A stretch of 64,000 nt of DNA from Nymphaea colorata. Lineage: Eukaryota > Streptophyta > Magnoliopsida > Nymphaeales > Nymphaeaceae. The position numbers and the translations under genes were made by a program. A model generated the notes under the pieces. The model worked only from the letters and a program-made list of their open reading frames with translations. It did no database searches and was not told the origin of the DNA. This document shows positions 1 through 32,200 of this stretch, one piece after another (the stretch's first letter is position 1; each line of letters begins with the position of its first letter). The stretch lies in the NCBI RefSeq assembly GCF_008831285.2, contig NC_045139.1:15234354-15298353 (forward strand), read 5' to 3'.

Positions 1-1074
1 TTTGGAATGTCTATAATGCAAAAGCTTGCAAAGAGACTAGAATTATGCCTCTTTCTTGTTCTGGAGGGTCTGAGCCATGCCTTGTTCTAACATCCTCCAG
101 TTTCTTGTTCTGGTTGCTCTGGAGAGTTCTCCTTGTTAATATCTCAACTTTTCTCTTAGACTTTTGGGATGATTGTGTGCCTAATTTTCTCAACCTAACC
201 AGAACGTGATGCTTATGTTATTAATCTTTTGATTCATTTCGGAGTCATTACTAGCTTGGTAAAGAAGAAACTCTCCATGTTTACAGCCAAAATTCAGCCC
301 ATTGACAAAAGCTATGTCACCTGGGTGCGGGTGTGGGTCACCTTGAATCGATATACCAATGAAATGGCCAAAATATTTTCCAGAACAGCCAAAACTCATT
401 TGACGCTGTGTCGGGTTACACCCGCACCCGCACCGATGCGGATGCTGGTCACCACCATGGTTGGCGCACCCATGTGGCTTAGGATAAAAGCTTAATCCGT
501 CAAAGCCACCACCTACAATGAGAAGAACTAGCGGAGCCAATGCCTTCTTTTCTAGATTCAAACAAATTTCAAGCATATAGCTCTTAGGAAACAAAAATAT
601 TTATTGTAATCTAGGAGATCAGTAATGCATTTTTACAGTAGTACCTTCTAAACAACAATAATGATGAAACGTTTGTTGCACATCAGCATTTAAAATTCTG
701 CTCAGCTTAATGCCATTCAAAATGAGAGATGGTGACCTATCTTTGAAAGTATTGCAGATTTAATGCCTTTTTTGCAGCTTTGACTTTTTGATGCACAATG
801 AATAGTTTCTAGCATTGACAGCAAATTTCTTTTTCTTATCAATGGGAATATGCATGTATTCTGTTGTAGAATTTGGAAATAATAGTGCAAGTAAACAACT
901 CAATGAAGTAAGAAGCTTTTTGGTCATACTGACGCAAGGAATTTCTCAATATGTCGAAGTTAGGAACTAGTCATAGACTCATAATACATTTATTTGCCAC
1001 GTAATACAGTTGTGATAGTCAGTAGTCCGTTGAGTTTCTATTTTGCTTGTGGTTTCTTGAACAGCATCCCCCAG
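1..1074. other. 5' flank of the ALE2-like gene; first exon not resolved
   Basis: The stretch precedes the first supported exon of the receptor kinase. It should hold or lie close to the signal-peptide exon, because the family has a secreted N terminus and the supported exons already encode about 1,128 residues. I could not pick that exon. A short ATG frame at 45-212 has a hydrophobic run but no convincing phase-1 donor. The only clear structure is a MITE at 312-482. Confidence 0.5.
312..482. mobile_element. hAT-like MITE, copy A
   Basis: A 171-bp element begins CTATGTCACCTGGGTGCG and ends in the inverted complement of CTAAGCCACATGGGTGCG. It is flanked by GACAAAAG (304-311) and GATAAAAG (483-490), a 7/8 match expected for an aged 8-bp target-site duplication. 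Short terminal inverted repeats, 8-bp duplications and no coding capacity fit a hAT-derived MITE. Three further copies lie at 26-30 kb. Open frames on both strands across this interval are by-products of the GC-rich repeat. Confidence 0.8.
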
Positions 1075-1122
1075 GAAAATCTTTATTCCTCCTTCCAATA
1101 AAGCATGATGTGGGGACATTAG
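1075..1122 (+). other. possible small upstream exon of the ALE2-like gene
   Basis: A 48-nt segment lies between an acceptor-like CCCCCAG and a donor-like AG|GT. Read in phase 1 it is open for 16 codons, matching the phase-1 pattern of every downstream exon as far as the kinase. Its composition is less Pro/Ser-rich than those exons, so it may be chance. Confidence 0.25.
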
Positions 1123-1252
1123 GTTCACCTTCTCCTGACATAATCTTGTCCCTGATATGCCTTTTAGGCTTTTGCAAAATGGGTAGCAATTACCAAAAGT
1201 TTTTTACCTGTTTATATATTTTTATTGCTGATGAGACTAGTATAAATTTCAG

Positions 1253-4200
1253 CAGGCACTGGCACACTGTCCTGGCAAACTTATCCATCTCTGCCACCAT
1301 ATATTGATGAAAGAGGTTTTGGTGAAGGATCTCTTGTGAAATCACCAATTCTGCAAATGCCAGCCCTCACCATTGCACTCACAGGTTTTATTCCACCTAC
1401 TGACCTAACTTTTTTGCATTTTAAAGATTCTCTTCTATGAATCGCTGACTCTGCTACAGTTTCAGCTAAACAGCCGACACCAAGAATTATGCAACAGCTA
1501 GTTCCTTCTCTGCCCCCAGATGCCTTATTCCATTATAATGCTTATCATCCATTCCTTCCACAAATAAGTCCATCTGCGCCACCTCATCCAAATCCAGCAG
1601 TAGTAGATGGGAGAAGACCTCCAATGTCTGAAGCACCAATTCAGTCAACCACACATGAAGGTGACAATTGGATAAGCTTTCTATAGTCTATATTCCTCCT
1701 TTTATATATCTTTCACATGCTTATATAATTTTTATCATTTTATGATTGTGATCCAGGCATCGCATCTCCTCCTGCAGTTGTTTCACATAGCAATTTGGCA
1801 CCACAGGTCGCCATGGATCAAATGGTCCCAACCCCACCACCGGATGTAAGAAGCGAGAGATCACATTTGGCAACAGCTTCCCCTCCTAACAAAGCATTAC
1901 CACCAGTTGAGGATGCTGAAAATGGTTATTTGTCTGACCTCTGGCTGTAAAATGCTTTCATCAAATGAATTTTTTGTACTTAATATGCACCTTTACAGGA
2001 TTCCTTTTTTCTCCGCCAAGTTTGTCTCCTTCAATTCCCCATGCTAGAAAACGGGTATCTGGCAAAAGAAACCATGAAACAGCACCAAAGACTCATATAC
2101 TTTCCCCTGGTGGTGCCATGATTGAGAGGGCACCACCACCTATGGGTAAGGTTGACAAAGAATGGTGCAAATTTTTTATACTGTCAGATGGTTGTGTTGC
2201 TTATTTTCTTTGTTTGTTTGAAATCCAGTTGAATCAGCTCCATTGGCTGCACCACCAAAGCAACCATTAAAGCTCTCAAGCATGCAAGACACAGCTCCAT
2301 CTATTTCTGCGGCTAGTCCTTCAGTTGGGTTAAATATACAAGGTAAGCTTGCATGAATGACCTCATCTGGAACCATGCATGTTCAATAATTCATCATCCA
2401 GTTATTAGGGAAACTACTTTGTCATATTACCATTTTCATATCATAGGCAATTTGCATAGTTTGGACAGTGACACCTATTGTTAACAGAACCAGCTGCTTC
2501 ACCACCCTGGGTATCTCCTCCTATTGATTGGTGGCAACACAACAGTCATTCGTGGCCTCCAACTGCCCCTGAGCAAGGTATTACGTCTAGATTAATATGT
2601 TTCTTTTATCAATACAATACCATTCTTTGGAGAAAAAGGTTTTCATGGACTTGAATTTTGTTTCTGAATTTCTGAAGGTACTCCTCATGCACATCCTACA
2701 TTTAAAAGGACAGCAAGTCCTCCAAGTGTAACACACCCGCAACCAAATGCACCTTCCAAGTCCCTTATAACAGAAGGCTCAAGTCCTGTGTCAGCACCAT
2801 CTAATTTGTTGCCTTCTCCATTGCCTGTTATAGCTCCAGCTCCACAGCAAGTGAACAGGTCCATACCATCAGCTTCCAAACATCATAAGGAGACAACAAA
2901 TCATTTTCCTTCTCCACCTTCAGTTTCCCCACCCAATGAAAGAGGTACTAGTTTTGAGCTGCATAAACTATTTATGTGTTCTCATCTAATTCTCAAATGT
3001 TAAGGATTTACAAATACAAATTCTCTGTTTTTATCTGTAGGTCCATCTACCTCGCCAGCTTATTCTCAAAATCCTCTTCCACCAGCTGTATCTCCAGTTT
3101 GGAGGTCACACATGCCACGTGTTGCCCCTTCCTTACATAGAGGTACTACAAACAAAGTTAAAGTTGACTTTTCTATTATGAACACTTGCCATCCACACAA
3201 GGCAGCTCACAAGCTTTATACTGTTCTTGTAGGTCTTCCCCATTCCCCTGCTAAATCACCACTTCCTTCCATAGAGAGTTCAGGATCTCCTTCAGGTTTG
3301 TTAGTTACTGCTGCAAGTGTTCTTCAAGTTATGAGGAATGTTGGTTGAATTTTTTTGTTTAATTTGTGAATGTTCCTTTGCCTTGTTAAATTGACATGTA
3401 ATATTATTTGTTTCACTTGCATGTGTCAGGCTCCAGTTATCCTTCTGTTGTTTCTCCTTCTCCATCACCCTCAGAGAAACCAAGAAAACCAGCAGTGCCA
3501 CTACCTGCTCGAGTATTACCACCACCTCCTCCTAACCAAGGTACATATGTTTGTGTACTTCAGAGAATTTATTTCCATTCTGGCGTTGCCTTGGTGAATG
3601 AACTTGGGACATAGTTTGGCTGTAACATCATAGGGCAGAAATATATATTTGCTTTCTTAACAAATTTTCTGTATTTTTTCTCCATTGTTACTCCTGAAAT
3701 TGTTTGATTCTACTTGACGAAGGGACAAAAAGACATGATAAAGAACATGATACACAGAATAGTGAAGAAACAACTGAGTTGTAAATTGTAATTAATACCT
3801 GTTTTATGGAACATACTGTTTATTAGTGACTGTGTACATATTATGAGTTTATGTGTGTGTGTGTGTGTATATTGATCTTGATTGGATATCTTTTGATGAT
3901 CCAAAACAAGCTATACTTGACATTCATTAATGATCTAAGACAAACTGTTCAAATTTAAAGGATAAGTTTCAGGGGATTTGTTCAAATGTGCAGATTGTGA
4001 GCAATTTGAGTGCAGAGAACCCTACACAAATTCTCCACCAGGATCAGCTTGTGGTTGTGTATTGCCTATGCAGATTGGCTTGCGTCTCAGTGTTGCACTC
4101 TATACATTTTTCCCTCTAGTTTCAGAGCTGGCATTGGAAGTAGCAAATGGTGTTCAGATGAATGCAAGCCAGGTCCGCATAATGGGTGCTAATGCAGACA

Positions 4201-7060
4201 GCCAGCAACAAGACAAAACTGTTGTGCTGATCAATTTGGTACCTCTTACCCCAAGGTTTAGTACTAATACAGCACTCTCAATCTACGAGAAATTCTGGCA
4301 CAAGCAAGTTGCTATAAACAATGTCTCTTTTGGTGACTATGAAGTATTATATATTCGTTATCCAGGTAAAATTCATGTACTCTGCACTTACTATCTAGGT
4401 GAAACAATATTTAGCATTGCCATGCTTAACCTTCCTTTCTTTCAGGGCTTCCTCCCCCACCACCTTCAGCACAAGCAGATATTGCGGTCAATGGCAGGCC
4501 ATATATTCCTGGAAATGGTTCGCCAATATTGAAACCAATTGGAGTTGATGTGAGCAAAAGGAAGAAGAAATTGGGAGGTAGTTTGCTAACTATCATAGCT
4601 CTATCATCCGCTATAGCTTTTGTTATATGCCTTGGAGTGCTTTGGTTCTTCGTTTTCAAGCATAGAAACCGCTCTCAACGTTCCAAGCCATTGCCACCTG
4701 TTATGATTTCAACCTTCAGGAAGTCCTCAGGTACATGTTCACATCCAGTGTGCATAGCCTTTCATTTCTAATTCAGCCATCTTTAATGAAGCAATGAAAG
4801 GCAGCTTCCTTCCTGTCACTTATTAATGCATTGACTTGCTTGGCTGAAAATTCACAGGCATAGGATCTCCATTATCTGGCAGTGGACCCAGTTCGGTATC
4901 TTTATCCTTTGGCTCTAGTGTTCCAACATATAAAGGATCTGCTAAAACATTTTCGTTAGCTGAGATGGAAAGAGCTACAAATAATTTTGATCCTGCTAGA
5001 GTCCTTGGAGAGGGTGGCTTTGGACGTGTGTACAGTGGCTGTCTTGAAGATGGGAAAAAGGTGGCAGTAAAGGTTCTCAAACGAGATGATCAACAAGGTG
5101 GTAGAGAGTTCCTGGCTGAAGTTGAGATGCTTAGTCGTCTGCATCACAGAAACTTGGTGAAGTTAATCGGCATATGTACAGAGGAGCATTACCGTTGCTT
5201 GGTGTATGAACTTGTTCCTAATGGTAGTGTGGAATCACATTTGCATGGTACGAGTTGTACAGTAATAGCACATAATGTTAACCACTTCTACACATTCTGC
5301 TCTGAGATTCTTGCTGGACTTTTCCTGAACTTTAATCACCGTGTTACAGGGGTGGACAAGGACATCGCTCCACTTGATTGGGGTGCACGAATGAAGATTG
5401 CACTTGGTGCAGCTCGAGGTCTTGCATATCTACATGAAGATTCAAGTCCCCGTGTTATCCATAGGGATTTTAAATCAAGCAACATATTGTTGGAGGATGA
5501 TTTTACACCAAAAGTATCTGACTTTGGCTTAGCTAGAGCAGCAGTAGAGGAAGGAAGTGAGCATATTTCTACACGTGTTATGGGAACCTTTGGGTATGAA
5601 CCGTGCCAACACAGTTCAATATTTGTCTGGACCATGTCACGTCTTCATCAAAACAGGAAGTTTTCTGAAAACGTGTTTAGAGAGCAATTCTATCCACTAT
5701 GATAAGGGCAAAAGTATGAAACAGATAGTTTTGTTCACCTTCTAAAAATGTATTGAGTTATACATAACCACAATGGGTGCCTAAGCCGCATATCTACCCA
5801 CCAGGAGAAGGAAGATCAGCCACTAGGGGTGTGGAGTACCTAGTAGCTAGTTGAACTAGCAATTAGGTGCTCCTAACAGCTAGAAAGCATTAGATCAATG
5901 CCTGTCTAAAGTTTACAAGATACCTAGAAGTAAAAAAGGCAAGGGTGGTGAATATTTCAAATTTTTTTGTTTGTTTAGTTTTTCATATTTCAACAAAAGT
6001 TTGAAGAGAAACCTAGATCTGAGCTTTCTTAAGAGTTAAGAGCAACATGCCCCTTGTGGGTGTGCCTTCTCTGCTCCAGCCTGTACACCTGTGGCATCGG
6101 CCTGCACAAGAAGTGGCACCTATGTAATTTGAACCATGACTGCCTGCCTAACAGGCTAACACACAATGACTCACTCCCACTATTCCAACCTCTTTGCATC
6201 TGAACATTTCAAGTTTCTAGAAAAAGCATCCTATATGCAGAACAAATTAAAATCTAATATACATGTAACATTCACATCTATGATTCTATATACTCGTATA
6301 ACTCGAGTATATGTGGACATATTTTTAACAAACTATGATATTTTGGTTTCATTACTGCAGATATGTTGCTCCTGAATATGCAATGACAGGTCATCTTCTT
6401 GTAAAGAGTGATGTTTACAGCTATGGAGTTGTCCTTCTTGAGCTACTTACAGGAAGAAAGCCTGTTGACATGTCACAGCCACAAGGGCAAGAAAACTTGG
6501 TTGCTTGGGCTCGTCCACTTCTTACAAGCAAGGACGGGCTGGAGATCATTGTTGATCCGGCCTTGTCAGGTAGTTATCCATTTGACACTGTGGCCAAAGT
6601 TGCGGCAATAGCTTCTATGTGTGTTCAGCCTGAAGTTTCTCATCGGCCATTTATGGGTGAGGTAGTGCAAGCTTTAAAACTAGTGTGCAGTGACACTGAT
6701 GAGAAAAATGGAGGATCAGGAAGCTGCAGCCAAGAGCAGCTCTCCCTGCATGACTTGGAGACCAAGACCAGCTCTGTGACATCGGTGCATTTGGCACATA
6801 CTTCACCTATTGCAGACGATTGTAGTCAAAATCTGGAAGCTGGTAGAGCATTATCTACTTCAGATGTCCTTAGTAGCTCAGCAAGGGTTTCCCGACCAAC
6901 AACTTCCTACAGGAGGCACTCTAGTTCTGGCCCACTAAGAACAAGTAGAAGGCAGCCATTCTGGCAGAGACTTAGAGGTTTATCAAGTGGCACGGTGAGT
7001 GAACATGGTGTTGCACTAAGAGCGTGGCCTGGTTTATATAGCCACTCAGATGAGCTTTAG
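1253..7060 (+). CDS. ALE2-type receptor-like Ser/Thr protein kinase (5' end incomplete)
   Basis: A membrane receptor kinase of the ALE2 family. Supported exons: 1253-1384, 1460-1660, 1757-1924, 1999-2145, 2229-2342, 2488-2577, 2678-2944, 3041-3142, 3233-3295, 3430-3540, 3994-4365, 4446-4730, 4858-5247, 5350-5593 and 6361-7060. The first ten encode a Pro/Ser/Ala-rich extracellular stalk. The 3994-4365 exon is the conserved Cys-containing ectodomain ([27 protein letters not shown]). The next carries a single hydrophobic helix after a Lys/Arg cluster. The kinase has [25 protein letters not shown] and APE, so it is an RD kinase and should be active. The tail ends in a Ser/Arg-rich segment typical of the family. 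About 1,128 residues are visible; the signal peptide is missing. Family members act in epidermis formation in Arabidopsis; here that role is inferred. Confidence 0.9.
3852..3869. repeat. (GT)n microsatellite
   Basis: Short GT dinucleotide run inside the intron before the conserved ectodomain exon of the receptor kinase. Confidence 0.85.
5248..5349 (+). other. 102-nt in-frame intron within the kinase domain
   Basis: This segment has a GT start and CAG end and separates the HLH and GVDKD parts of the kinase. Its length is a multiple of three and it has no stop codon in the coding frame, so an unspliced transcript would stay open. Retention would insert 34 residues between kinase subdomains V and VIa. 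The Arabidopsis ALE2 family lacks such an insertion, which supports removal as an intron. Confidence 0.75.
6007..6160 (+). repeat. dispersed repeat, shared with 52.4-52.6 kb
   Basis: The last kinase intron (5594-6360) holds a stretch that resembles 52434-52610 in the same orientation. Shared anchors are a TAGATCT block with a following CTTTCTT/CCTTCTT, and about 90 nt later a CTTGCACAAGAAATGG-like block followed by ACCTATG. Class unknown. Confidence 0.5.
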
Positions 7061-10000
7061 CTGTAATTAGTGGGAAGGTAACTTGCAATTGGTGGTCACT
7101 GAAGGCCGATTTCAAATGTGTGCAGACACAAGAAACTGCCGTGCATGTTGAAGTTGCAAAGCAATGAAAATGTCTCTTTTATGGGATGTATACTGCCATC
7201 TGGGACCATAAAAACCACGTTGCCCTGTTGTTCAGTGGAAATGTTGGAGGGAAAGAGTCATTAATTCATGGTACTTATACATGGGGGCATTTGTTAGGAT
7301 GTTCCTGCACCATTCGAATCGGACTGCTTGGCATGTTCGTCTCAAGTGCGTGGCAGTTATGTTCATGGCTTCTTGCCTCAAGTCAGTTGGTTCATTGTTC
7401 CTCCCTTTCTTGGGCTGAAGATACGACATGTCTCTGCTTGCGTTCATTTCAGTGGCAGCCTTTTTTGTTGATGTGTGATGGGCTTGATGTTGTCAGTTAA
7501 ATTTGCTGGACAGGAATGGCCAGGTTAAATCATATCAGTGCAGTAATCCGACAATGGACTGCCTTTTCTAAAATCTCAGAAAAGAGAGGAAGAAGAGAAA
7601 GAAGATCATCATTCTTAGAAGGCCAGAGAGATAGCTTAGATACTGCGGCCGTTTATATTTTGCACCCAGTCCTCTCCTCCAACCTCACCAATGTCTGTCT
7701 TCTTTTTTCTCCTTTCTGAAATTGTATGTTACATCTGCATCGAATATGTAAATATTTGAGCAGTTGCTGTCCAGTTAAAATAATTTTACTAAAGCTGGTC
7801 GCGTGACCCGCCAAAGAACATTTTGAGGAAGATTTACAGTCTTCAGTTGTCTGGTGGCTTGGAAGTCGTCACTATTTGATGAGGTTATTTTTCTTTTGGG
7901 ACGATTTCTTAGTGAGGTAGTTGTCATAGGCGCCTCTATTTGCACCGGGACTTTGCAATGGTAATGGTTAGTTGAGACCAAGTGCTGGTGAGGATGTCAG
8001 GTCCCTTCGAAAGGGTTTTGGCCGAAGACAGAATCTGCCTTAAGCGTGCGATATGTTAACAGTGTGTTATATGGCACAACTTTGAAGCCCATCCGGCCCT
8101 CCATGATATGTCTAATATAATATATAACAGCGGACCTCTAAGAAGGACGTAAATCTTTCTATGGATTGAGATCAGAATGATGCATGACGCACTGGGGCGT
8201 CTAACATGGCAAAGGCCTTCAAAGTACTGGATTGAGATGCAAGCTGATCCGCACTTAAGCATTGTACAACATAGGAAAAAAAAATTGCTTTTACAGAAGT
8301 GAACAAAATTAAAGTTAGTGGATAGGATATCATTATTCCCCATCTATCATTTTATTGAACAAAAATCTACAAATTATCAGCATCTTCTCCATTACACGCT
8401 GGCTTGCACTATCAAGTCCTAGAAAAGAAATTAATAAAAAACAAGCTGCAGTACAACTCAGTTTTCTGATTTCCTTCTTCCAAGGACTTGGACCTGCGCG
8501 GGTGACGCTGAAATGCTGTTTTAAACCTGATTTTATTGTCATAACGAGTCCTTTCTTAACGGTTCAGGAGCTAAAACGAGGTTTCTAACATGGGTTTAGT
8601 ATCTTCAGATGAGCTTTTCATTAGTTTCCAAATCCAGCTGAGGTGGGCAGGTGGTTCAGTGTCGTGATCATGCTCAATCTGAAGTTTGGAGTAAAAGAAC
8701 CTTGGCTCATATTGAAGAATGCTGAGCTCATTCAGCATATTTGGCCTCTCTATATGTCTATTTTGTGCTAGTTCCTGAAAAAACAGATGAAGCAGGCAGC
8801 AAAGGTCTGGCTCCAAACAGAGCCCCAACTTAACAGGCATGACGAGGACCCACCTAGCAGACAGCCAGGAACTCTTACGCCCCACTTGGGTTTTTAGACT
8901 GTGCGGGCATGTGAAGGGCACAGTATGTTAAGTATGCAACCACTAAATCAGGTGCCCAGTGGGACCTCCAAACTCAGTAAGTTCAACACCTACCTTCTAC
9001 ATTTTTCAAATTAGAGTGTTCCAATGTGCCTGTTATTGTCCTGTTCGTTCTCTATTCCATTAGACAATTAAATGCCCCCCACAATTTTTGCACTACTTTC
9101 GAATGCTCATGAAGTATTTTAAGAATTTTCAACTTGCACACAAGATCGCAGGCAGGTCCCATATACTTAAAAGAGGTTGCTTCCATCCATCTCCATGCAT
9201 TTGATAGTTCTTTTACTCCTATTAATGAGGACGGCTAAGAGGAAATGGAAGTGACGCATAAATCACTTGACTAAAGGTTGTGAACCGGTCGGTGTAATTG
9301 GCCTGACCAGATTGTTACCAATTACTCTGCAGACAGATACCACAGTTTTCCTTTAGAAAGCACAACTTGAAAAGAATGAGATACACTGCCTCACTTGGCA
9401 TAATCTGGTAGGGTCAATTCTAACGCCTGCTTAGTTGCCTATCATAAAAAATAAGAAGTGTCTTCCACGAATTACTACAGCATGCAGTACTCTTTCTCAG
9501 AGCTCCTTCACTCTATGGTACTAAAAAAACAAAATCATTTAATACCCACTTAAAAGTTTCATTTCAGATTGAATTTTGATTCTCTTATTTTGTTAAAAAT
9601 CATTTTAATTTGCTTAGCACTTTTAGTTGAAAAACTAAGAAAAAGACCTTATTTGTCTTGAAAGAAATTGAAAGGTGAACTTGGCGGTTGAAGCTTTTGC
9701 CATTATGGCGAGGACCAAGAGACACCGATGTGCATTTGAGATCAATAACTCCCTAATTCACTCTTAAATACAAGGGCTCTAAGCTTTCCTGTCTCAGATC
9801 CAACGATTGAATGCATCTACATGGGCGGGGGTTGAACTGCATCAGTGAGCCCCATTCCAGCTCAGAACCTGAAGGACGATCAGAGCGTTTGGACAGTGCC
9901 GTCTAAATATTCATTGCTAGGTGGGGTTGAGCTTTTGCAGAGAACTGTCTGGTCGGATATCTTTAAATAACCTTAGTCCTTCTGTACTACCAACCACATT

Positions 10001-13000
10001 AATCAAACCCTATACTTCTTGTAGTAATTTGCAGACTCTGTACTGATGAAGAAGCTAGCTTCTCACGGAAGCTGGAGAAATTAGGGTCACTCTGCAGTTC
10101 TTATTGGAACGAAGAATTTGTATCTCAAAGGGGCCGTTTGGCATGAGGAATATTAAATGAGTGTTTTAATGAATCTGCACTAAATATTACCACTTGAACA
10201 AGTGTTTCATAAATGTGCCCCAAGATTTGAGCAAAACTCATGAAATACTCATAGTGTTCGTCATATCTTGTAAGGTGATCTTCAAAGCCCGCCATTGTTT
10301 CAACATATTCTGCTACCCATTTGATATGAGTAACTTTTGAACAAGACCAAGTTGAAGGCATCAAAGTTTGTAACTTCAGGAGTACACAAACCCAAATCAA
10401 ATTTTGGGTTAAAGTTATTGGTCGTGTGTTCTAGATGCTAAGATTTTCTATTAGTTATTAGTGCATCGGACCGCTTTCTGTTTGATGTCTAATATAGTTT
10501 CATGGATGAGCATGAGTATTCATCCTACTTCCAAGGAAAAAACCAACCAAACCCCTCGTTTCATGGGGTATAGTGCTTGCTTTTAGTGTTTCAGAGTGCC
10601 AGAATTCCCCCCTCCTTTTTTCCTAGTACTTCAACTTGCGTATAGGTAACTCCAGTTTTCTAGCACAAAGCATTGATACCTCATAGTTTTAAAAACGAAG
10701 ACTGCTGCCTGCCAGCCCCTTCCCTGTTTGTTGCGCCGACCCCATTAGAGACGATCTCTAATGCAGTTTACTGTCACCCAAGTTCAAGTATTGATCTATT
10801 CAAAGGATTTATGTCCAACCTCTTTAACAAGGTGAATGAAACTGATCATGTTAGGAAAGGTATTATTAAGATATCTAACCCTTCGAAATTGTCAAACGTC
10901 CATTGAAAGCATTCAGAGGATGGGTGTAGACTAAAACTCAACTTTGCTTTAAAGCAGAAGCGAGTGATGAGGAAGATCGTTATTCAGCAGACTTATCCCC
11001 GCTTAGTAGGGAAGCATTTATGCGGCGATGGCGTTTTACCAGGGAGCATTTAACGTCACCATCAATTACGGATTCACGTGAAGCCTGTCAGGCCGAGAAG
11101 AGCAGACGCGAGAACCTAAAAAGCAAAGATTATAACTTAATCCCCCTCTCTCTCTCTTGCGCATTCAGATGCTCCCATTTTTGTGGCAACGAATCAGGAA
11201 AGAAATCCGATCGAGTCCTCTCCATAACGAAGGCCCCTCAGAAGACAAATGACGAAAGGAGGAGAAAGGGAAAATCGTCTGAACGAAAAGGAAGTTAGCC
11301 CGCAGTTTCGCATTGCAGAGGCACGTGGTGACAGTTGGAGCCTTCAACTTACGGTCTTCTCAGGTGGAGGATAGTGTGGGGGGAAGAAAGAATTGTAGAG
11401 AGAGAGAGAGAGACTGGACGGGAATTCAAGGAATGGGAGGTGTACTTCGCTTTTAGTACTTGCCGGTTGCCGGCTGCCATCTTCATTTAAGAGCTACAAT
11501 GGAGAAATGGAGATGGGGAGGTTGGTGGTAGGTTGGAATGGAAAAGGAAAAGGAAAAAAGAGAGATCAAAAGAATTGTACGTGGCTCCATTAAAGCTTCA
11601 AATGACGTGTGGACCAACTCCGGTTGCTCCTCGCCATTTTTTGAGCGCGGAGGTTTTTTGACATCACAAGTTATATCAATCAGTGGCTGATAACAAATCC
11701 TCTCATCCCTTACAGATCTCAAATTGGAGAAAGATATTTCCATTCGGAGGCTTGATCAGGTCCCAAACTTGCCTACCACCTTCTGTTAAGAAGTCCCCGC
11801 ATCCAACTTCACATGGTTTTATGGTTGTTACTGCACTCTTCTGCCATTGCTGCATTGCCAACTCCTGGGCAATCCAATCTGTTCATTTTCACCTCTTGAG
11901 AAAGTAACAACGATTGTCAAAATAAGTACTAAATGGACATAACTTACTCCGACATACACATTTACTATGATTCAGAAAAAGGGGGAGAGCGTGAGTGGAT
12001 CGTGTCTTCCAAGTAGCGTACTATGGCTAGCTTTTTTCTAAACCACATTTACAGACCATAATGTGCAACTCGAATTCACAATGTCGATGTTGTAAATACC
12101 AGTTCCCTTTTTTATTTGAAATTGAAATGTAAAAAAGATAGCGTCCGTACCGTACATTAAAAATAAATGAACAACCAACAAATAAATTAATTAATTGTGC
12201 ATATTATTTTATTTGTAAAATTGGCTAGCACGTTTGAAAGAGGAAATTCACTCGTCTCTCTCGTATACTGGAACCGACTACGACTCTAATAGCCCTCGCA
12301 GGTTTTAATGTTCATTTCCATTAGATGCTTCTAACCATTCAACAAGGAATATTAAATTAAATGTTACCGTTATTGAAATTGGTAATAAACATGATTAACA
12401 CTGATTGACGACCAATTTCAACAATCTTGACTGCATAGTTTATCTCACTTGGATTTTGTACTCAGTTGCACAGGAATAGGTTGTTGTATTTGTTTATGAA
12501 ACTAATAATTGTTCCTTGTGAAAGCCTAACAATATTAAAGTTGAGAACAAAGAGAGGAGAGACATTATATATACGAATAACAGCTTCCTTTTTAATGTCC
12601 ACTGGCACTGTATGTGAATCGTACCGACCAATGCTCTAACCTTGAAGTCGGACGCTTGTGTGTTTCTAAAATTTGGCTTAACATCCCTCTTTCGCGGCCG
12701 ACGTTGTTCCACATGCTAATAAATTGTGCATTGAATGGAAGAATCTAACTCAACCAACCGACTTGAATAACTCCCCACCGATTTCCTTTCCTTAGGAATA
12801 ATAATCAATTCCTTGCCAAGGCCGGCCGTCGTTAGTGTCCTCCGTTCATCTCCGAGTTGACGTGTGCGTGTGTATGCCTCTGTTAATGCTTTAACATCTT
12901 CACCGTCCATTGCAGCAATCAATGGCCGTGATCAATCTTGCTATAAAGACGAAGATGATTTTTATTTTACTTTGTAAAAGATCATGGATTCTCTAGGAGT

Positions 13001-18958: not shown

Positions 18959-20032
18959 ACTGGGGAGAAACCAGTGCAAATAATGCATGAAAATACTATG
19001 AAAAACTACTAAAAATAATATACGTTTAAAACTCATTATTTCTCTGAAGAGTGGCAAACCCACATTTTGCTCAAGGCAGGTTATGCTGAACTTGACCAAA
19101 AATTTTTATCTGCGTCCAGGAGTACCAATTCTGAACCCAATCTAGAACTGGTTATTACCTCACTTTCTTGGTTGCCTTCTTCGGCGTTATGTAGTCGGTG
19201 CTGGTCTCTGGAGCCCATTTTAGTTCAGAATTCTGACACCGCCGCTAGCTTCACAACTTTCATTCCATGACAAAAAATAAAAGAGAGGATAATATGGCGA
19301 GATTAAACCTAGACGAGCTTAAATGTTGAAGGTTAACCTGTGAATTCAACTGCCAGTTCTGCCAATTCCCGAGCTTATTGGTGTAAAGACGGACTAAGAA
19401 ATGCATAAGGCAACTGTGAATAAAGCTTCTTCTTATACAGAAGTAGAAATTGATCAAATTTATCCTCCAAGTCCAGCAACCATAGACATCCAAAATTGTT
19501 GAAAAAAGATAACCTATCAACAACGTAACGCTCATGGTAGCTCTAATATGATGCATCGGACCATGTAAGACCACCAAACTGTGATACGTACTACGATGGA
19601 CCAAGAATGTATTCAAAGATGGTGGCAGCTGCCAGCTGGCATAAATATTTCTCACATTTCTCATTGTCTAAAGTTTAAACGTATTCCACCCATGTTCGCT
19701 GTTCCCCAATTAATTACAGTAGGCAATTCTCTTGAAAGCTGTCTGTTTCCTGCATCTGTCCACGAGTACTCAACTTGTCGCTAATTTTGCAAAGGACAGG
19801 ATTCCGTAGATGGAAGCACAAACAGAATTGGCAGTCTAGCACAAAGACTCCTTCAAGCAGAAGTGGCTCTCAAGATGCTGGATAGCTGTCTTCCATATGG
19901 AATACCATGTGGTTAAGGAACAAATTCATGCATGGAAGTAGGATGGAGGATCAATGACCTTTTAATATATACCTCTCTGGCGCAAGGAGGTAATGACGAG
20001 GCTGAATTTTTACTCCTACATTGGGGTCTTGA

Positions 20033-20034
<2 letters not shown>

Positions 20035-20067
<33 letters not shown>
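20035..20067. repeat. (AG)n microsatellite
   Basis: About 16 uninterrupted AG units in intergenic DNA. Confidence 0.92.
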
Positions 20068-20069
<2 letters not shown>

Positions 20070-23000
20070 ATGTTTCTGCAGGTATCAACTAAAAACAAAG
20101 GCTGATTCAGGCGCCTGTCTATAATGCATGAAGGTAGCAGAAATGACCTTTCAGTAGACAGAATCATTATGCATCATGGGAGGATAGACCACGTTTATGA
20201 ACTTGGCTGATTCGATCTGTTTTGTCAGACTTTTGATGTTTTCTGTAAAGGTCTTTCGCATGGTAAATTTTGTAAATAGCTTCCTGGTTTAATTTCTTGT
20301 TTGGTCTTACAGCTGATGCCATGAATCCCCACTTTTAGGTTTGTAATCTGCGCATATATTTTGTTCTGCAGTAAATCTTTGAGAGCTTCTCCCACGCAGA
20401 TGTCTTCATTGGAACTTGGACTTCTCATTTTCTTTTTCTTGTTTTCTCTTGCCCTTCTTCGTTTAAAACTTTAGATGTCAACATTGCCGATATAGCCTGT
20501 CGGAATGCTTTATTAAGGCTTGAGGCATGTGAGCCATCAAAATCAACAGAGCTATCAACCATTCGTCTGCACAAAGAAATTGCAAAATAACTACCATAGT
20601 AAATAAAAGTCCTGTTAGCTGACACGCTTCTGTAGTTTTGCCTGTGAAAATTATTGGGATGTCCCGTACGTTGTCGGAAAATACAGTTGGACATTAAGCG
20701 CCCTCCCTTTTCTACAGCTCCAAACTCAAGCCTCAAATGTTGGACTTTCATATGCGTGATGAATCTTTTGTGAGAACTATAGATGACGGCCTGCACTTAA
20801 CGATTGGCTCCTAACTTTGGTCGAAAGGCACAATTAGACTGAGAATGATAACATAATTATCTCTTTACCTGTTTATAAGATTGAATAAGCACTCTTCAAC
20901 CTGAAACGGGGACAAGGAAGGGCACTAAAATTCGCTTAAGTATTCTATGATGACAGATTTTCTATCTGGAACTCTCAGTAGCCAGCAGAAGTTGTGCTGG
21001 CATCAGCAAAACCCTGTAGATTGTAGTTTTGATTCCGTCAGAAATGTGACCCGGGAAGCTGCCAAGTTAAAGAAAGCAGTTCTAATATTCTTTCATACTA
21101 CTCAAAGATTTTTAGCTTCTCGGGAGGAGGGCACCGGCCGACTGAGTTCGGCATAATGACCAATAAGTGTAAAGGACAGGAGAAGGGAAAGCCGAAGTGA
21201 CAAAACAGATGCTTTCCTTCTCTGAAATTTGATAAATACTACATTGAAATATGTGGACTGTGAAGTTTTGGATTGACTGCGAGAAAGTGGACTTCGGAAA
21301 AAGCGAGTTTCCTGGGTACTATGGCTATGACCACGGCTAGAAACACAACAAAATTAACCTGGGGACACCATGAAAGGTAGATCGAGGTTTCAAGGGTAAC
21401 AAATGGTGGCAGTACGGGATTTTCAGGCAGGCCGTGAATGGTAAAGGCTCTTTTCGTGGGCAACGTGTACGGGTGAGAGGAACAGACCTATCTAGGACCT
21501 GAACGCATGCTCCCAACGTAGCGCATTAAGGCTTCTCATCGGCAGAACTCAGAAGAAAGTTGAAGCGCCGACAGTCAGATGTCGCAGAGCTGTCGTCGGG
21601 AACCTGGTTTCAGAGCAACCCTAACCTATCGCTTTCTCTTTAGAACGGTTCCCGGGTCAACAGTGGTAGCAAGGCTGCTCGAACGATCATATACGGCCTT
21701 GTGTTCTGTGGTCGACCGTCAGCGTCGCCATCGTCTCCGGCGAGGCCGTGTTAACGCTCTCGTTCTACAAACGGATACGGTAGCTTTCCTGCCGGGCACA
21801 TGCCTTTTGCCAAAACCACAATGGTGGCTCGTGCCTACCCACTTTCCTTTCTTCCCTAGTTTACAACTGCTTTATGATCTCCATCACACCTTGAGCGCCT
21901 ACCTTTTGCAATCAAAAGAGTAACGGCCACATGACACTTGAGAACGTATAGTCAGCACAACCTTTACGACATTGGAAATATGAAGTTGGAAAGACGTTTC
22001 TAAACTTATTTCAGGAATTGAAAAAATGAAAATAAAATCCAAATTGTGTTTGTTGTACTACGGTTTATGTTTCAAGAAATAAAATTTTCAGTTTAATAAA
22101 AATGAAATAAGAAAAAACAAATTAGTTGGATTAAGCATTGCTTGACAATCAAGAGAAACTTTTTTATCCTGAAAACTTTTTTCCATCCCTTGAAATGGAA
22201 AGAAATTTTCGAAAAAAAAAACTTTCTGAAAACCAATCCAATGTTCACTTTTTTTTTTATCCATGGACAAGAAAAAATTTCAAAAAATTGAATTTTTACG
22301 TGACTACAGGAAATATCCTGCCAAGCAGTACGACCAGTCCGCTCGGCCGATACGACCCGAATCGCCATGCGATTTTAAGGCTTTTTAGCGCATCAGCATC
22401 AAACCGCTAACAAAAACTCAGGCTGTAATATACTTTAGATACGTCATTCTACGTTCAATTATTAGCGTCGCTTATCTTTTGCCTGAGAACAATATAATGC
22501 AACGAAATAATGCTTTATCGGTAATGAAGGCAACCAGTGTTTAAGCCACCTGTGGATCACCCGAAGAAGAGATAAACGTATCACCAGGTCCAGGTCATAC
22601 GCCACTCCAGACTTTGTAGAAAAAGCTACATCTCCGAGAAAAACATATAATCCTTTTATCGAAGGGTCAATAAGGACTGAATCAGTCGATTCAGGCATGT
22701 AGCCGAACCACGCCACCCAATGGTCCCGGCGTCGTTCTCCGGCGGGCTCTGATATTGATAACACCAAATAGTAACGTCTCTCCGTGAATATTTACAGCTC
22801 CGACAGCTAGCTCTCCAGATGCATAAAACAGGAAGTTATAGAGAAAAAGAATAGTCTTTATGATTAGAAATCTTTCCTTTAAAAAATTCATCTTTCAATA
22901 CACAAGATTTTCCCATCATTTCCTGCCCCATGAGAGATTACTAGTACCTAACTAACCCTAGTGAAACTCAATTTTTCATGAACAAAACAACAATTTTCGA

Positions 23001-23223
23001 CTCAAGAAGAACATGTAACAAATTTAGAATTCAAGTTTCCCTTTCAGCGATTGCATTCACCATGTGTCAGTCGCATGCGTTCTAGGGGATCCACATTAGG
23101 TGACAAGTCCCCCTCCAAACTTGCACAAAATCAACTACGGACAAAAGGCCGAGAAATTATACAAGAATGTCGATTCCATCCTCCCAAGAGGAATCGACAA
23201 AGCTCGCTCAGAAGCTGTGCTGC

Positions 23224-26200
23224 TCATCTTCCGTAAGGGTGATACCTACCATTGGCAGAACTTCCGTAGCTGCCAGGGCCGCCGCCACCACCACCATAAC
23301 CTTTGCCACCGTAGCCACCCATACCAGCTCCATAACCACTCACACCACCACCACCATAACCACCCATAGCACCATATCCACCCATACCACCGCCATAACC
23401 ACTACTGTCACCACCTCCATATCCAGTTCCACCACCTCCATAGCCACCCATTCTACCGCCATAACCATCATAAACACCATATCCATAAGGCCCCATCATT
23501 CCCCCACCATAACCGCCACCACCACCTCCGCCACCAAAACCAACACCATAACCATATCCACCATATCCTTGTCCCATAGGTCCACCATGGCCACCCATCC
23601 TTCCACCATAACCACCACTAGACCGATTAGAACTCCCTCCATACCCATAAGCAGGCCGTCCATAGTCCCCATATGCACCACCACCACCACCACCACCACC
23701 ACGTGTTCGCTTACCAAAGCCTTGACCTTCTCCTGACCTTTTCGGCTCAGCTTTCTTGATCTCCACCTTCAATTATCAACAGTATTATCAGACCATAAAA
23801 TGCAATACTTGATCGGTTGCTATTATTAGAAGCCCTTCAGCCTTACCTGCTTTCCTTTAATTTCATGTGATTGTGAACTTGACAGAATTTCTTCAACCGT
23901 CTCTTCACTCTCAAAGGTGACAAACCCAAAGCCTCGTGAGCGGCCACTCTGATCAGTCATTATCTGATGCTCGATAATATTCCCGTACGAAGAAAAGTAC
24001 TCCTTCAACTCATCTGCACTTTACAAGCACAACATCAGAAAAATGACCAGATCCAATAGCAAGACATCTGCACATTACCGTCAGTAACAGATGTTGGTAT
24101 CCCGCCAACAAATATCTTCTTTGTTTGGGTGTCTGGTGCTGCTGCCATTTCCTCCCTGGGGACTGTCCTCTTTACCTCAACCTGCGGTCAAGCATTTAGA
24201 GAAATCCATGCTTATAGATGTAAAGGAATCTGAGGACACTTGTAAGGGATTAGTCTACACGCTCTTTCTCTCTGCTCTCTCTCCCTCAACAAAACATGAA
24301 TACTCACTGTCCTATCATCGATGACATGTTCATCCTTTAGTACTAGCTCCACAACAGATGGGTCAGCAAAGGTAACAAACCCAAAACCACGAGGCTTTTT
24401 GGTGCGTTTGTCCTTCATAATCACAGAATCAGTAATCTCTCCATACTTCTGGAAATGCTCCGTGAATGTCTCTGGAATAATCAAAAGAAGAATAAGCGAT
24501 GAAGCATCATAAGAGCAATAACAAATTAAAAGGTCAAAGACAAAAGTGCTGCCACTTGATAAAACATTTTCCATGAAATGCAGGAAAGTTATACAAAAGC
24601 TTTGAAGCAACACTAAAATGCCAAAAAGCTAAAACCACACATATTTGGGCATACACGCTGATCCAAAATGGCCCATGACCATGGAAAACAATTCAATTGA
24701 TAAAATAGAGCCCAAAAGGGCAAAAAACATACGGAGGATAAATCATGCATACAAGGTGTTAAAAAATCAGGTTGCCCATAGTTCAGTCCACTTAGACCCA
24801 CAAAGACCAAATGTCACACAGTCAGACCAGATCAATTTAATTCTAAGCAGGACAACATTGCAGAAGGAAAGAAAAAACTTGCCAGTCTAACTTCCTGTTT
24901 CTTAATGATATAACCTTCCACAAATAACGTATTCATTATGTGGATATTACTTTTCCCTTGTTCAGCTGGGTACCTAAAAAACTAAAACGGAGCCTCAACC
25001 ATTTAACCAAATGGATGGAAAAGACCTCAACAAGAAAGAAGAAGAATGTGCCCAATATCCAACTAAAATCCGTATGGTTGACATCATGTAGTTTTCACAG
25101 GAAATGCATTACGAAAATCTGGAAGTTCTTGAGAAAAACATAAGAAAAATACTAATTTAATCACAAGCTTCAAACAAAATGTTCTTTGAAAATTTTTAAA
25201 AATAAATAAGCTTCAAAGACATAAAGGAAAACAAAATAAAGCAATTATACATACTTAAAAGTATGATAAAAGGAGCCAACTAGAAAAAAGAAGAAAATCA
25301 GAAGAAACTATTGGCAATATATTAGAAAATTATCAGAATATCTTGGGATACTATGTCAGACAGACACTGAAGCCAGAAGGGCACGTTACCTGTGTTGGCA
25401 TGGCAGAATAGAAGTGAGGGTGGGGACACAACTGACTCATTTTCATACTTTTTGGTATATTTTGGTACTTCTTCTGCAGTAATTTGTATTTTATAAATAT
25501 AAAAAATGTGTGTGTTTGTTAGCTTAAAATATTCTTCATGCTCTCTCTCCCCCCACCCCCGTTCTCGCTATATAGTAGTCATTTTGAAAATATCGGTACC
25601 ACCAGTAAAAATGATCAAGAAATTATTATCATTTACCATTGACTACATCTGCTGTAGAATATTCATTTCCAAGTACATCTTCTGCAGCCTTCTTAAATGT
25701 GTTTATGCTTGTCTGTAAAAATCCTAAAGAATGAATGTGTAACAGTATCTAATGCAATCCAACACAGCGGAAACCAAAGAAAAGTCTTATGGGATGACAC
25801 CCCCTTAAAACCTGGTTGGTTTTAACTTTCTAAACCTGGTCTTCATGTCGATGACAAAAACCAGGTTTTTGATGAAGCCTCTAGAAATTAATTTAGCTGA
25901 ACAATTGAGGACAGTTAAATTACAGTTGAACGAAGAGAATCACCCATTATAAATAATACAATTACAGCAGATCATAAAACCAGAACACTCATGAACAAGG
26001 AACACTGGAGCAGTACGAATAGAAGCTGGTCATAGCAATACATCCCCGTAAGGCATTAGTGTAGAGACCTCTTAAATTCCCAACCTATGTCACCTGGGTG
26101 CTCCTAAATAGCTGCCGCACCAGTGTCACACCCGTGTTGACGCTCGTGTTGTTGCTTTTCCAACACAGCACATTCGGTTCGGTCAGTCGAACCGGGTCAA

Positions 26201-29200
26201 ACTGACCATTTTAAATGTGCACATAACTAAACTATCTTTAATTCAAAAAATTTATATATAAATATAAATAAGGCTACTAAACAGTTAAATAACTATGTAA
26301 CAAATGATTTACAAACATATATACACACACATATATCTACACCCTCGCCACACCCACACCTAAATTTTTTTGCTAAGTTGCTGCATTCTTACCTCACCCA
26401 GCACTCAAGTGACAAAGTTCCCAACCCATGTTTGACCAAATGAAGATTGAAGATGAATGAATGCTTCATATAGGTCATAACAGCAACACATGATTAAGTA
26501 AACAAAAATCTGTACCAAAATCTCAGCCTCCATTCATAATACACAAAGTCAGAATTAAAGACAAGCCGAAGAACCTAAGGTTTATGCCCGAAATATAACA
26601 AGGCCTTGCCAACTCCAAAGAGTCTTCCAGTAATCTTACACAAGGGAAAATGATGGTGTTGCATAATGCTTATTTTCCTGAGGAAAAAAATATAACAGAA
26701 AAAAGGCACAAGGTTCAACATGGCCAACCATTCTGCAAATTGTCATTAATACGAAAGTTTATGTTTTAAAATATGAAACCCAACACAAGCAATCAAAGCA
26801 GCTTTATTACCTGCCTTTTAAGCATGATAGCATAAAATAGAGATGCCAAGACCTACAGGCTACAGCTATGAAAAAGTGCACAGGTCAATTAAAACACAAC
26901 TAAGTGGAACAGTCTGAAGGCAACATCCACAGCCTACATTTCACCAACAACTAACTTGTGCAAGATGTAGTCAAATAAGAAGTTGATATATAACAGTTGC
27001 AAACGTCAACATCACAAGATCAACAAATCAGTGCCCAAAACAAAGATTTTCATATATCCATAAAGCATCTAGATGAAACTTATGGTACTAAGAAGAGTGG
27101 CTTCTGGAGGGTTGCTATGAAACATGGGTGCGGCTGGCGGACTAGCGTCAGTGTCGACTCGGCCCGACATGGGTTTGAGTGCGGACACGTTAGCCTGCCG
27201 CGTCGGACCCCTTGGCCATATCAGACCTGTGCCCGTCCATCTGCGAGAGATGGTCAACGCTGACCGGGTACATCTATGTCCTCTAGTTCCAAAACTCCTC
27301 CTTGACTTCTACACCCGCGCATCCATAATTTTGAATTTGGTCCGCACCCGCACCCACACCATACCCATGTGACATACGAGGGTTGCCATCAAACGGAAAA
27401 TTCAGCACCATGCTCTAACAAAAATTCAGCAAGTCCAAACCAATTTTACTACTAATGGAACCAGGCCATGTCTTTTTCAGTAACTTCCAAAAAGAGCATG
27501 ATTTGCAGGAGACCAATAAATTGACCAAGGACATTACATCTTAACAGGACAGAAGCCTTTGCTCTTATTTGTCCATAAAAAGGAACGATCAATTGGCAGA
27601 TAAAAGTGAGATATGCCCATCTAAACCAAAATGGATGATAAAAATGACTTTACCATAATTGTGAATTTTATGAGAACTATCACCTGTTGAACATAATGGA
27701 TAACCGGAGCAGATTGTCGAGCATTTCCCCATACTTAAACGACACATAAGATGAAGCCTCACATTGTGTTCTGATTCACTATTACGTTGCAGCTAGTCCA
27801 AAACAGTTACTTAACCCAATAAGAGAACAGAATATGTTCTTTCATAAACATAGGGCAAAGATTCAAACACTCATGAAAGATCAGGTGTGGATAAGCTGCT
27901 GCAAATTCAATTTACAGTTGACCAACTTCAGATGTTCTAATTTATTAGAAAAGCTCACCTACTCGAAGTAAATCAACAGCAGCTTAGAACTAACAAGAGG
28001 AAATGATATCAATATTACCTTAAAAAGTTATTGATAAACAGTGTACGGAATGTCTTTTTTTTCCTCTTCCCTTCCTTATGTGCCTAAACTTCATTGACAT
28101 GTAGAGACCTTCTCTTTGATACTCTCTTCATTTATGGATGCAAAATTCTTTTCCTTGTTATGGAATATAGCCCAGAATATTTGTGGTAATTGCTATGAAC
28201 AGGACCATTCTTGCCCCTATTTTGCATTTGTTGTGGCAACATGTCCTCGCACCCCAAGTTCAAAAGTGAAAAATGAGCAGGATTATTGTACAAAAAATTG
28301 ATTTACAGTGCTTTCTTTGGCTCATTGGGCTTTTCCTTTTTTTGCCTTCCATTGTTGTTTTGTCTCATGTAAACTTGTACAATGTAATAACAGGCATTAA
28401 TGCCTGCCAAAGTGGAAACGCTGGCAATATCAGCTATTCCTAAATTTTACACTTGGACATCAGCATTTGAGTTCAAGCACATAGATTATTCGGATAAGGA
28501 GCTATACAATAGAATTAACTTCATGGTATTTCCCTTAGTTGTCAAGGCGTCTAGACACGCCTGGCCTAAAAAGGCATCCAATATCTAGCAGACTTTTATT
28601 CTCTTACTAACACTTCAGTTCTTTGAGAGCTCTTCTGTAATCAAGTCATATCTAGCTAAACTTAGTTGCCATAATCAAGAATTGCATTTAGTCTGTAAAT
28701 GAAGATGAAGAAATTTATCAATATTTAACAAACTTTTACTCTGTTACTTCTGTACTGAATATTTGATTACCATGAATTGATAAGTATGTGCATCAACGAG
28801 GATTTTTACAACATGGTAATTTAGGAAATGTTATGCTTCATGTGTGACTATCATCCAATGTTGTCACTGGCCGTATCATCTACATAGTTCATATTGTTTC
28901 TTTGCAGCTTTAACATCAGACTATGTGGAAGTGAGGTCTGCACATATTTCTCTGATTACTAGACATGCATAAGCAAGAGAAACTGGTGGCCTTTTTACCA
29001 TAAACCTAGGTTTAACATGGGTAAGAAGGCTGGCATAGGTTCCATAAAATATGTTTTAGAGCACATAAGATATATACAGAAATTCATGGTTTTATAAAAT
29101 ATGTACTTAACGTATGGCTGGAATTTCCACTAGAGGAGTTGATATAGAATATAATTAACGTACAGTAAATTGTACTTAAAGAACAGAAATTATATAATAT

Positions 29201-32200
29201 AACTGCATATAATATAAGTATATACGGTATAACAGTGCATAATAAAATTAGAGGACTTAATTTGAAGGGAAGATGACATTTCACCTTCCCATGGACTAGG
29301 CGTGCTAGCGCCTAGTCCAGCCTAGGCATCAGTCTAACACCTGTCGCCTAAGTGATGGACTTAGAAGACAGGTGTGGACTCACGCCTAAGCAACGCCTAG
29401 GCATGGACTAGTCCACGCCTTAACAACAAAGGTATTTCACCATAAACATTAGAAGAAAAGCATTTGAATAGTCTGCAACCATTTGAAGGACAAGAGAAAG
29501 AGGTTACTTAGGGCCAAGGTATTTATGGCAGCGACTCCTAGTGTATAGAAGTTGGACAACAAAAAGGGGAATAACAAAATGAAAATAAAATAGGAGAGGG
29601 GACCATTAGCTCACATGAGAACGCTGCCTTTTCCGGTGAACCCTTCGCTTTTCCAGCTGAAAACCCATTCGACTTTGTCAATCCCCTTATCTCATTGTTT
29701 TCTTCCTTTGTTGGCTTTATGTTTCCTCTTTGGGGCTTCTAGACTATGTCACCGGGGGGTGGAGTGATGCTGGTGCAAGTGCAGGTGCAGCAATTTTCAA
29801 ATAAAATTAGGTCCGCATGTGGGGGGTATATATATATATGTTACACTTCATTAATAGTTTAATAGCCTTATCTATATTTAGTCATTATAAATATTTGTAC
29901 TACGACTAGTTTAGTAAGATGTGCATCTAAAATGCTCAGTTTGGCCTTCTTCAGATGAATGCAGCGGACATGTTGTGTTGAGGCCGCACCAGCACCAGCA
30001 CCCGACTTGGGTCGACACAGGTCTGGCAGCTCTTTAGGAGAACCAATGTGGCATTGCTTCTAGAGATGGGTGTCTAAGATAGAAAGAGACGGGAAAGGGT
30101 GGAACCGAGAAGTACAAGGAAGAGGTGAGAGAGAGAGAGACAGAGATGTACGAACAGAGGACAATGAAAGAAGCAAGAAGATACATAGCAAAGACGAGAA
30201 ACCTAATGGAGTTTTGCCGCAGCAAATTTTTCCCACATGGTTTTCTACCCCCCATCCCAAAATGTCTTTTGGGGGTGAAAAAAGGAGGGCCAGATTTTTC
30301 CAAAGTCGTTTCAATGTTGTTTTGCGTGAAACTGGGTTTCCCTGAAACCCAGTTCGCAATCATCCAAACACACCCAAAATGGATTTGGATGGAAAAACAA
30401 GGCTTTGCCTCTCCAAACCCGGTTTGAGGGTGGCATCCAAAGGTGGCAAATAACGTTACTAGTGCTATGCTTTTGGTGTTTTGGCACATTGGTTACTGGT
30501 AACAAGGATCCTAATTTCTAAGTCATTCAAAGTTGAAGCTTGCAACTTGAAACCTTCTACAACAAGCATTTCATAACAAAAAAATAAGATGAATTTTTAT
30601 GTTAAAGATTCATGATTTTTACATGTGCAGGATGCAAATTTATGGTTAATAACACTTCAAACGAGTAGAATAAGATGAATTTCCGTCTTAAGATTCTACT
30701 TATTTACATGGACAACTATATAAAAAATTATGAGTAATATCTTGGAGTAAACCATCAGAACTGGTGCTATATAAAAGTCAATATTAGCTTTTTCACAGTA
30801 GAAATTTATTTCAAAATGAGCATAAAACAACAACCCATCACATAAATTTGAGTACAGCAAGTTATTTGTTTTTTATTTTTCTGAAAAATAGATATGAAAA
30901 TGTCCTCAAGTTATCATGCTTCATGCATTGAACTAGATATCATGCTTCATGCATTGAACTAGATATCATGCTTCATGCATTGAACTGATACACACTTGAA
31001 TACATGCCGCTGACCAAATTTAGATCCGGGGAGAAATCGCTGAGAGCATAATTATATTGTCATACAAAAGAGAAAAAATTATACTAGGAATGATAAGGCC
31101 TGTTTGGGTATTCCCAAACTGCAAGGTGCAGAGGTAGGACATGAAACAAAAATTTGGATGTATGTTTACTAGAAATATGATCAATCACAGCCATGACATC
31201 ATTTGTTCAACTGATATGGAGACCTCGCTAGTCATGTACGGACGCCACCAAGATATCATATGGTCCACAAAGTCACAGCAGTTACAAAACACTCAAGTTC
31301 TATCCCCTTTGTAAAAATGGTAGATTACATGAATCCCCCCATTTACGTGAGGACCTCATAAAATATAAATGAACAAACAAAAAACTAGTAAATAGACATA
31401 ATGCTGTTCATTTAAAAAAGTTTAATTTATTAGTTTATTTATATAGGCCAAAACAAAAAAAATATTAGGCATTTTCGTTCACAGGTGATTCATATGTGCA
31501 TCCTGACCATAATTATCACATCACAGCCAAGTACAGCAAAATAGATACTGTTACTGCTAATTTTCTTACTTCCGAGATGGTGTGACGCCACTACACTACA
31601 CACTGTGATCGCATTCAACCAGGAAACCATAACCAGGCACATGGACTATGAAAGAGAAGTACGAAAATGAAAACCAAATAGCCCGATAAAAAAACACTCA
31701 AATAAGTAAACACAGCATAACCACAAAAAGAAGATTCCACACGAAAAGGTATGTTCATGTCTTCATGATCAGAATCCAACATCAAGAGACACAGACAAAC
31801 GCTATTCAAAAACCAGATTATGACTAAACTTCACGAACTCCATTTGTGAAGTCAGCCTCTTGAAGGCAAACCATGCGTAATTGATATTGCTGATTCTAAA
31901 TGAAACCCAACAAAAGGTTGACATTAAAAAAGGACAGGAGTCCACTTGATAATTTTATTTTCTGTAATTTTCCTTCTCATGGACAACTAACCAACATACT
32001 GCACGTCATCTCTCTCCGACTTTAAGAAAATACTAACTGCTAACAAACTGATTACGATTAAGAAAAAAAACACAAACAACAATTCCAAAACAAGAAGAAA
32101 ATGAAAAGTGAAATCAAGCAAAAAATATGATCCGAGGGACATGTACAAAATTCATCGCATAGCAAAGTTCCAGACGAAGGCAGAACACATTCAATTATGC

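Follow-up and report, generated by a model that had tools for sequence, protein, structure and literature searches.

Four short elements of probable hAT type with 8-bp target site duplications in a Nymphaea colorata sequence

Introduction

A 64,000-nucleotide stretch of Nymphaea colorata DNA (contig NC_045139.1, positions 15,234,354 to 15,298,353 of the forward strand; the window) contains four short sequences with similar inverted ends, each bounded by a short direct repeat. This raises the questions of whether the four are transposable elements, of which superfamily, and how closely the copies are related. The first-pass annotation had described them as one four-member family of hAT-like miniature inverted-repeat transposable elements (MITEs) with different interiors. 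We find that they are probably old, non-coding, non-autonomous DNA transposons of the plant hAT type, on the grounds that their inverted ends are matched, that there are four separate 8-bp duplications, that two of the copies are homologous within unrelated flanks, and that a subterminal sequence pair is confined to the four elements.

Results

Boundaries, inverted ends and target site duplications

It was found that all four elements have CTATGTCAC-type inverted ends and that each lies between copies of an 8-bp target site duplication (TSD), exact in three cases and with one mismatch in the fourth, as had been described. Element 1 (312-482, 171 bp, no strand assigned) ends in CTATGTCACCTGGGTGC and CTAAGCCACATGGGTGC, with 14 of 17 positions paired in its terminal inverted repeats (TIRs), and is flanked by GACAAAAG on the left (304-311) and GATAAAAG on the right (483-490), which match at 7 of 8 positions. 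Element 2 (26085-26417, 333 bp, on the plus strand by a label that is relative to element 4 only) has the ends CTATGTCACCTGGGTGC and CTTTGTCACTTGAGTGC (14/17) between identical copies of TTCCCAAC at 26077-26084 and 26418-26425. Element 3 (27115-27377, 263 bp, no strand assigned) has the ends CTATGAAACATGGGTGC and GTATGTCACATGGGTAT (12/17) between identical copies of GAGGGTTG at 27107-27114 and 27378-27385. Element 4 (29744-30056, 313 bp, minus strand), a homologue of element 2 in the opposite orientation, has the ends CTATGTCACCGGGGGGT and CAATGCCACATTGGTTC, paired at 9 of 17 positions, between identical copies of CTTCTAGA at 29736-29743 and 30057-30064. The coordinates initially given for elements 1, 3 and 4 were correct, but the start of element 2 had been placed at 26095; the true start is 26085, which gives the length of 333 bp, and the TSD reported for this element fits the corrected start only. 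The AT content of the four elements is 44-61%.

Comparison with shuffled sequence

The first-pass annotation had considered a chance origin very unlikely, and both end-motif counts and counts of TIR and TSD pairs bear this out in exceeding those of shuffled sequence. When the end motif CTATGTCACNYGGGTGC was counted in the window with up to 3 mismatches, 8 matches were obtained, 7 at element ends and 1 elsewhere (at 6772), whereas 100 shuffles gave a mean of 0.52 and a maximum of 3. A scan that used no motif, and accepted any pair with a TSD of at least 7/8, a TIR of at least 12/17 and a span of 80-1000 bp, returned 26 pairs, whereas 40 dinucleotide shuffles averaged 6.0 and never exceeded 15. 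Many of these 26 pairs are AT-rich or of low complexity. A CTATG start was present in 3 of them (elements 1 to 3), as opposed to 1 across all 40 shuffles, and pairs with a TIR of at least 14/17 numbered 3 in the window as against 11 in total over 150 shuffles, with at most 1 per shuffle. The best three pairs were elements 1 and 2 (14/17 each) and, ahead of them, a further candidate element of 898 bp (28534-29431, no strand assigned; TIR CTTAGTTGTCAAGGCGT/CTTTGTTGTTAAGGCGT, 15/17; flanks GTATTTCC/GTATTTCA); all three start CT..G.

Subterminal RCACC units

Each of the four elements contains RCACC units at 6-bp spacing. These form arrays on the plus strand in element 1 (418-434, accompanied by one more unit pair on the opposite strand at 324-334), element 3 (27344-27360) and element 4 (29986-30002), and a plus-strand unit pair in element 2 (26350-26360), with which the array of element 4 is not homologous in place. 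The pattern RCACCNRCACC, which was picked after the sequence had been inspected, occurs at 8 sites on both strands of the window, and 8 of 8 are inside the four elements, with at least one in each; in 100 shuffles, the mean was 0.24 and the maximum 2. GGTGY was found 22 times in the elements, compared to a mean of 4.0 and a maximum of 12 in 500 sets of windows matched for G+C content (within 0.04 where such windows were found). The 898-bp candidate is without RCACCNRCACC. The confinement of the RCACC pairs to the elements ties elements 1 and 3 to elements 2 and 4.

The RCACC units are candidate transposase binding sites by analogy with Hermes, which binds short subterminal repeats via its BED domains (PMC10368747; here and below, a PMC number refers to the cited passage of that source).

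Relationship among the copies

The four had been regarded as a single family with different interiors, and this description holds for part of the set. Elements 1 and 3 do have interiors of their own and have in common with the others only the ends and the subterminal RCACC units, whereas elements 2 and 4 are homologues in opposite orientation: a BLAST comparison against the window gave 69% identity over 223 columns (E 1.3e-16), together with a shorter match of 57 columns (74% identity, E 0.005), and the interior local score was 90, relative to a maximum of 31 in 200 shuffles. The gap-lenient global alignment of these two elements has 235 identities in 280 gap-free columns, plus 86 gap columns; the resulting 84% is an upper figure because it counts only the gap-free columns of such an alignment. 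Similarity among the other interiors was weak, the best score, for elements 1 and 3, being equalled by 2 of 200 shuffles, that for 1 and 4 by 4 of 200, and that for 3 and 4 by 7 of 200; we tentatively put the weak scores of elements 1 and 3 down to the common G/C-rich units. A family is conventionally defined by at least 80% identity over at least 80% of the length and at least 80 bp. By this rule the four do not form a single family, elements 2 and 4 reaching 69% identity over 223 columns and elements 1 and 3 having weakly similar interiors.

The homology of elements 2 and 4 does not extend into their surroundings. When 150 bp of flanking sequence was added, the main BLAST match started on both sides at position 3 of the element, and identities between the two left flanks (3/8, 12/50 and 21/100) and the two right flanks (3/8, 17/50 and 25/100) were no better than chance.

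The TSD copies differ at 1 of 32 positions over the four elements, whereas elements 2 and 4 differ at no fewer than 16% of gap-free columns, a rate at which the probability of at most 1 difference in 32 is 0.026. This suggests that the copies diverged earlier than these insertions took place, with the caution that elements get noticed through their intact TSDs.

Assignment to the hAT superfamily and possible mode of movement

The tip consensus of hAT elements is YARNG. Among the 8 ends of the four elements, G is present at position 5 in all 8 and C at position 1 in 7, so that the tip fits in part, and the assignment to hAT would instead be carried by the length of the TSD (matches of 8/8, 8/8, 8/8 and 7/8) and the shortness of the TIRs (14, 14, 12 and 9 of 17 positions paired in elements 1, 2, 3 and 4, respectively). 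Subterminal repeats near the ends, a further hAT feature, are present in all four elements as RCACCNRCACC and nowhere else in the window. In grasses, TSDs of 8 bp are classed as hAT and those of 9-10 bp as Mutator (PMC3579700), and high-copy hAT families of grapevine have TIRs of 8-23 bp and TSDs given as 8 bp in the text and 7 to 9 in the table of PMC2528002. More generally, hAT is the customary class for plant elements with 8-bp TSDs. Of the label hAT-like MITE first applied to these sequences, the portion that denotes small, non-autonomous, cut-and-paste elements with 8-bp TSDs is well supported, whereas the hAT tip is only partly present.

At 171-333 bp, the elements are too short to hold a transposase, which, like the lack of a transposase domain in the open reading frames described below, fits non-autonomous elements. 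A hAT transposase supplied from another place in the genome would bind to the ends of about 17 bp and probably also to the subterminal RCACC units, excise the element, and insert it at a new site with an 8-bp stagger, which would give rise to the 8-bp duplications; the elements may once have moved in trans.

Several observations weigh against this interpretation. Position 2 of the tip, where the consensus has A, is T in 7 of the 8 ends and A in 1. The ends of element 4 pair at 9/17 only and were missed by the motif-free scan; they rest on the TSD and on homology to element 2. At one end of elements 2 and 4, the BLAST matches stop 32-42 bp before the tips, and it is the inverted end and the TSD that support the boundary there; furthermore, a gap-lenient local alignment of the two continued beyond the element ends into the flanks, which we read as a chance extension. 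The RCACC arrays of elements 2 and 4 fall at non-homologous places in the global alignment, which speaks against one fixed layout of binding sites; this, like the weak interior scores, concerns the binding step and leaves the likelihood of the main reading as it was. The target pattern nTnnnnAn fits only 1 of the 4 TSDs (TTCCCAAC); this pattern has been described for Hermes (PMC10368747) and is not demanded of all hAT elements. Three of the 4 TSDs can be read as 9 bp. There was no transposase domain in 10 open reading frames (ORFs) taken from the elements and their surroundings (9 out of 40 listed between 25.5 and 31 kb, and 1 over element 1), as the first-pass annotation had stated, and the two weak matches that were obtained (E 0.038 and 0.13) were both to unrelated families. 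Lastly, elements 3 and 4 fold not clearly better than shuffled sequence (18 of 200 and 19 of 100 shuffles as good, respectively), whereas elements 1 and 2 beat all shuffles (0 of 200 and 0 of 100 as good).

The folding of elements 3 and 4 rules out a stable whole-element hairpin as a general feature of the set. Rfam and tRNA scans of the window returned nothing.

Duplication length and alternative origins

The possibility of a longer duplication arises from the bases just outside the TSDs. The base after the right TSD copy is C, equal to the C at the left tip of the element, in 3 of the 4 elements, and in 4 of 5 insertions when the 898-bp candidate is included (P = 0.007, given the C content of the window). 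With the same five insertions, 7 of 10 outer flank bases fit the pattern G-N8-C (P = 0.0009, calculated after the fact). A target preference for G-N8-C, noticed post hoc in five insertions, is a weak lead. A more far-reaching proposal is that of a hAT-type lineage in plants that is characterised by CTNNG tips and by a G-N8-C target, a palindrome whose outer bases repeat the terminal C and G of the element, with two families in the window that would obey this rule and be gathered in one intron: one in which arrays of RCACCN hexamers would serve as docking sites for the transposase, and one represented by the 898-bp CTTAGTTGTCAAGGCG element with other subterminal repeats. We consider this proposal speculative and unlikely to be correct.

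It is improbable that the four are instead Mutator-like elements (MULEs) with short ends and duplications of 9 to 10 bp, in which the terminal C and G would belong to the target. The recurring C after the right TSD copy is what such elements would be expected to have, and TSDs of 9-10 bp are the Mutator class (PMC3579700). However, the outer bases mismatch in 4 of 10 cases, compared to 2 of 40 core positions, the 898-bp candidate included (Fisher P = 0.011), and this excess disfavours a 10-bp duplication; taken by itself, the left outer base differs in 3 of 5 (P = 0.0065), and the right outer base in 1 of 5 relative to the same 2 of 40 (P = 0.30), the latter being compatible with a 9-bp duplication on the right. 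A 9-bp reading would leave the ends asymmetric by one base, and at about 17 bp the TIRs fall short of what is expected of Mutator. According to PMC2528002, long TIRs are typical of MULEs. The simplest reading is an 8-bp duplication with symmetric ends.

Membership in a different superfamily that makes 8-bp duplications, P-like elements for instance, appears very improbable. MITEs of the P-element and Novosib kinds are said to exist in plants (PMC7385995), and a literature search for the hAT tip consensus found none given for hAT, the sequence YARNG being printed for the P superfamily in the cited part of PMC2820524; against this, no feature seen in the elements points to P. It is scarcely credible that the four repeats have no relationship to one another, or that low-complexity, G/C-rich sequence paired by chance, as the weakly similar interiors of elements 1 and 3 (at best 2 of 200 shuffles as good) and the inflation of end similarity by G/C-rich units might suggest, in view of TSDs that are located beyond the repeats and match exactly in 3 of 4 cases, the homology of elements 2 and 4, and the failure of shuffles to reproduce the set.

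Comparison with known elements

We compared the elements with known systems. The hATpin elements, the subject of Moreno-Vazquez et al. 2005 and Menzel et al. 2012, are, as the titles have it, MITE-like hAT elements with conservation across diverse plants. They differ from the present set in that the titles speak of highly stable structures, whereas 2 of the 4 elements here fold not clearly better than shuffles. A CTATGTTGCTCGGACTC-type repeat of Solanaceae and other plants has a CTATGT start followed by G/C-rich sequence; it shares this start with the elements and diverges after CTATGT, and we regard this resemblance of letters only as a lead. The tobacco small RNA nta-miR390c (AGCTATGTTGCTCGGACTCTC) is, we presume, similar to a plant repeat of the CTATGTT-ended kind. 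Its letters are unlike those of miR390a and b beside it in a table of PMC3237444.

BniHAT-1 and BniHAT-2 of Brassica nigra, of which there are 434 and 331 intact copies, resemble the elements, as described, in being short and non-coding with an 8-bp TSD, and have TIRs of 25 and 12 bp; they differ in length and composition (673 and 666 bp and 70-75% AT, as opposed to 171-333 bp and 44-61% AT here) (PMC7385995). Hatvine-6 (hAT-6_VV) of grapevine, with a 13-bp TIR and a TSD given as 9, resembles elements 1 and 3 in that its copies have common ends and a remainder that is often unique to one copy or found in few, and differs in that its members have transposase coding sequence in common (PMC2528002).

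A literature search by the end sequences gave no tie to a transposon among the matches listed, as judged from titles and abstracts; one match, PMC6264596, describes a Ty3/gypsy element. Exact scans of viral and genome contig collections for longer versions of the ends gave 0 matches each, as expected for a plant sequence.

The elements are real and ordinary, adding to a common class of plant transposons and bringing some novel detail on end structure. Small hAT-type elements are common in plant introns, and the set is mostly a catalogue entry; what is useful are the corrected boundaries, a pair of homologues in unrelated surroundings, which helps to define the ends, and concrete candidate sites for transposase binding.

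Intron context and other features of the window

Elements 2, 3 and 4 and the 898-bp candidate, which is of a different family from elements 1 to 4 and has GCCTAGGC-type repeats toward its right end, together amount to 1,807 bp, and 4 of the 5 transposon candidates thus lie in one putative intron of 7,797 bp (24472-32268, minus strand). This intron, which has GT/AG borders, would split an RRM of an hnRNP-like gene: on the minus strand, one coding piece that ends at 32269 and another that starts at 24471 can be joined without a change of frame, as KLFVGGIAWRTTK followed by ETFTEHFQKYGEITDSVIMKD (also given as KLFVGGIAWRTTK followed by ETFTEHFQKYGEI), and the downstream exon matches RRM_1 and chains of nuclear polyadenylated RNA-binding protein 4 and hnRNP A1. 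The same putative intron contains a 26-bp tandem repeat (30912-30990, 3.1 copies, 98% match) about 850 bp from element 4. A glycine/tyrosine-rich open frame on the minus strand (23224-23772), which has 63-bp and shorter repeats and is without a Pfam match, probably forms the C-terminal portion of the hnRNP-like gene.

The window has the appearance of nuclear DNA from a plant. Besides the hnRNP-like RRM gene, its genes include an ALE2-type receptor kinase, a GMC oxidoreductase and a PP2C phosphatase; Pfam matches were obtained in 6 of 10 window ORFs, with the ALE2 N-terminal domain in a seventh. A 91-bp tandem duplication (2 copies, 88% match) is present at 39148-39326.
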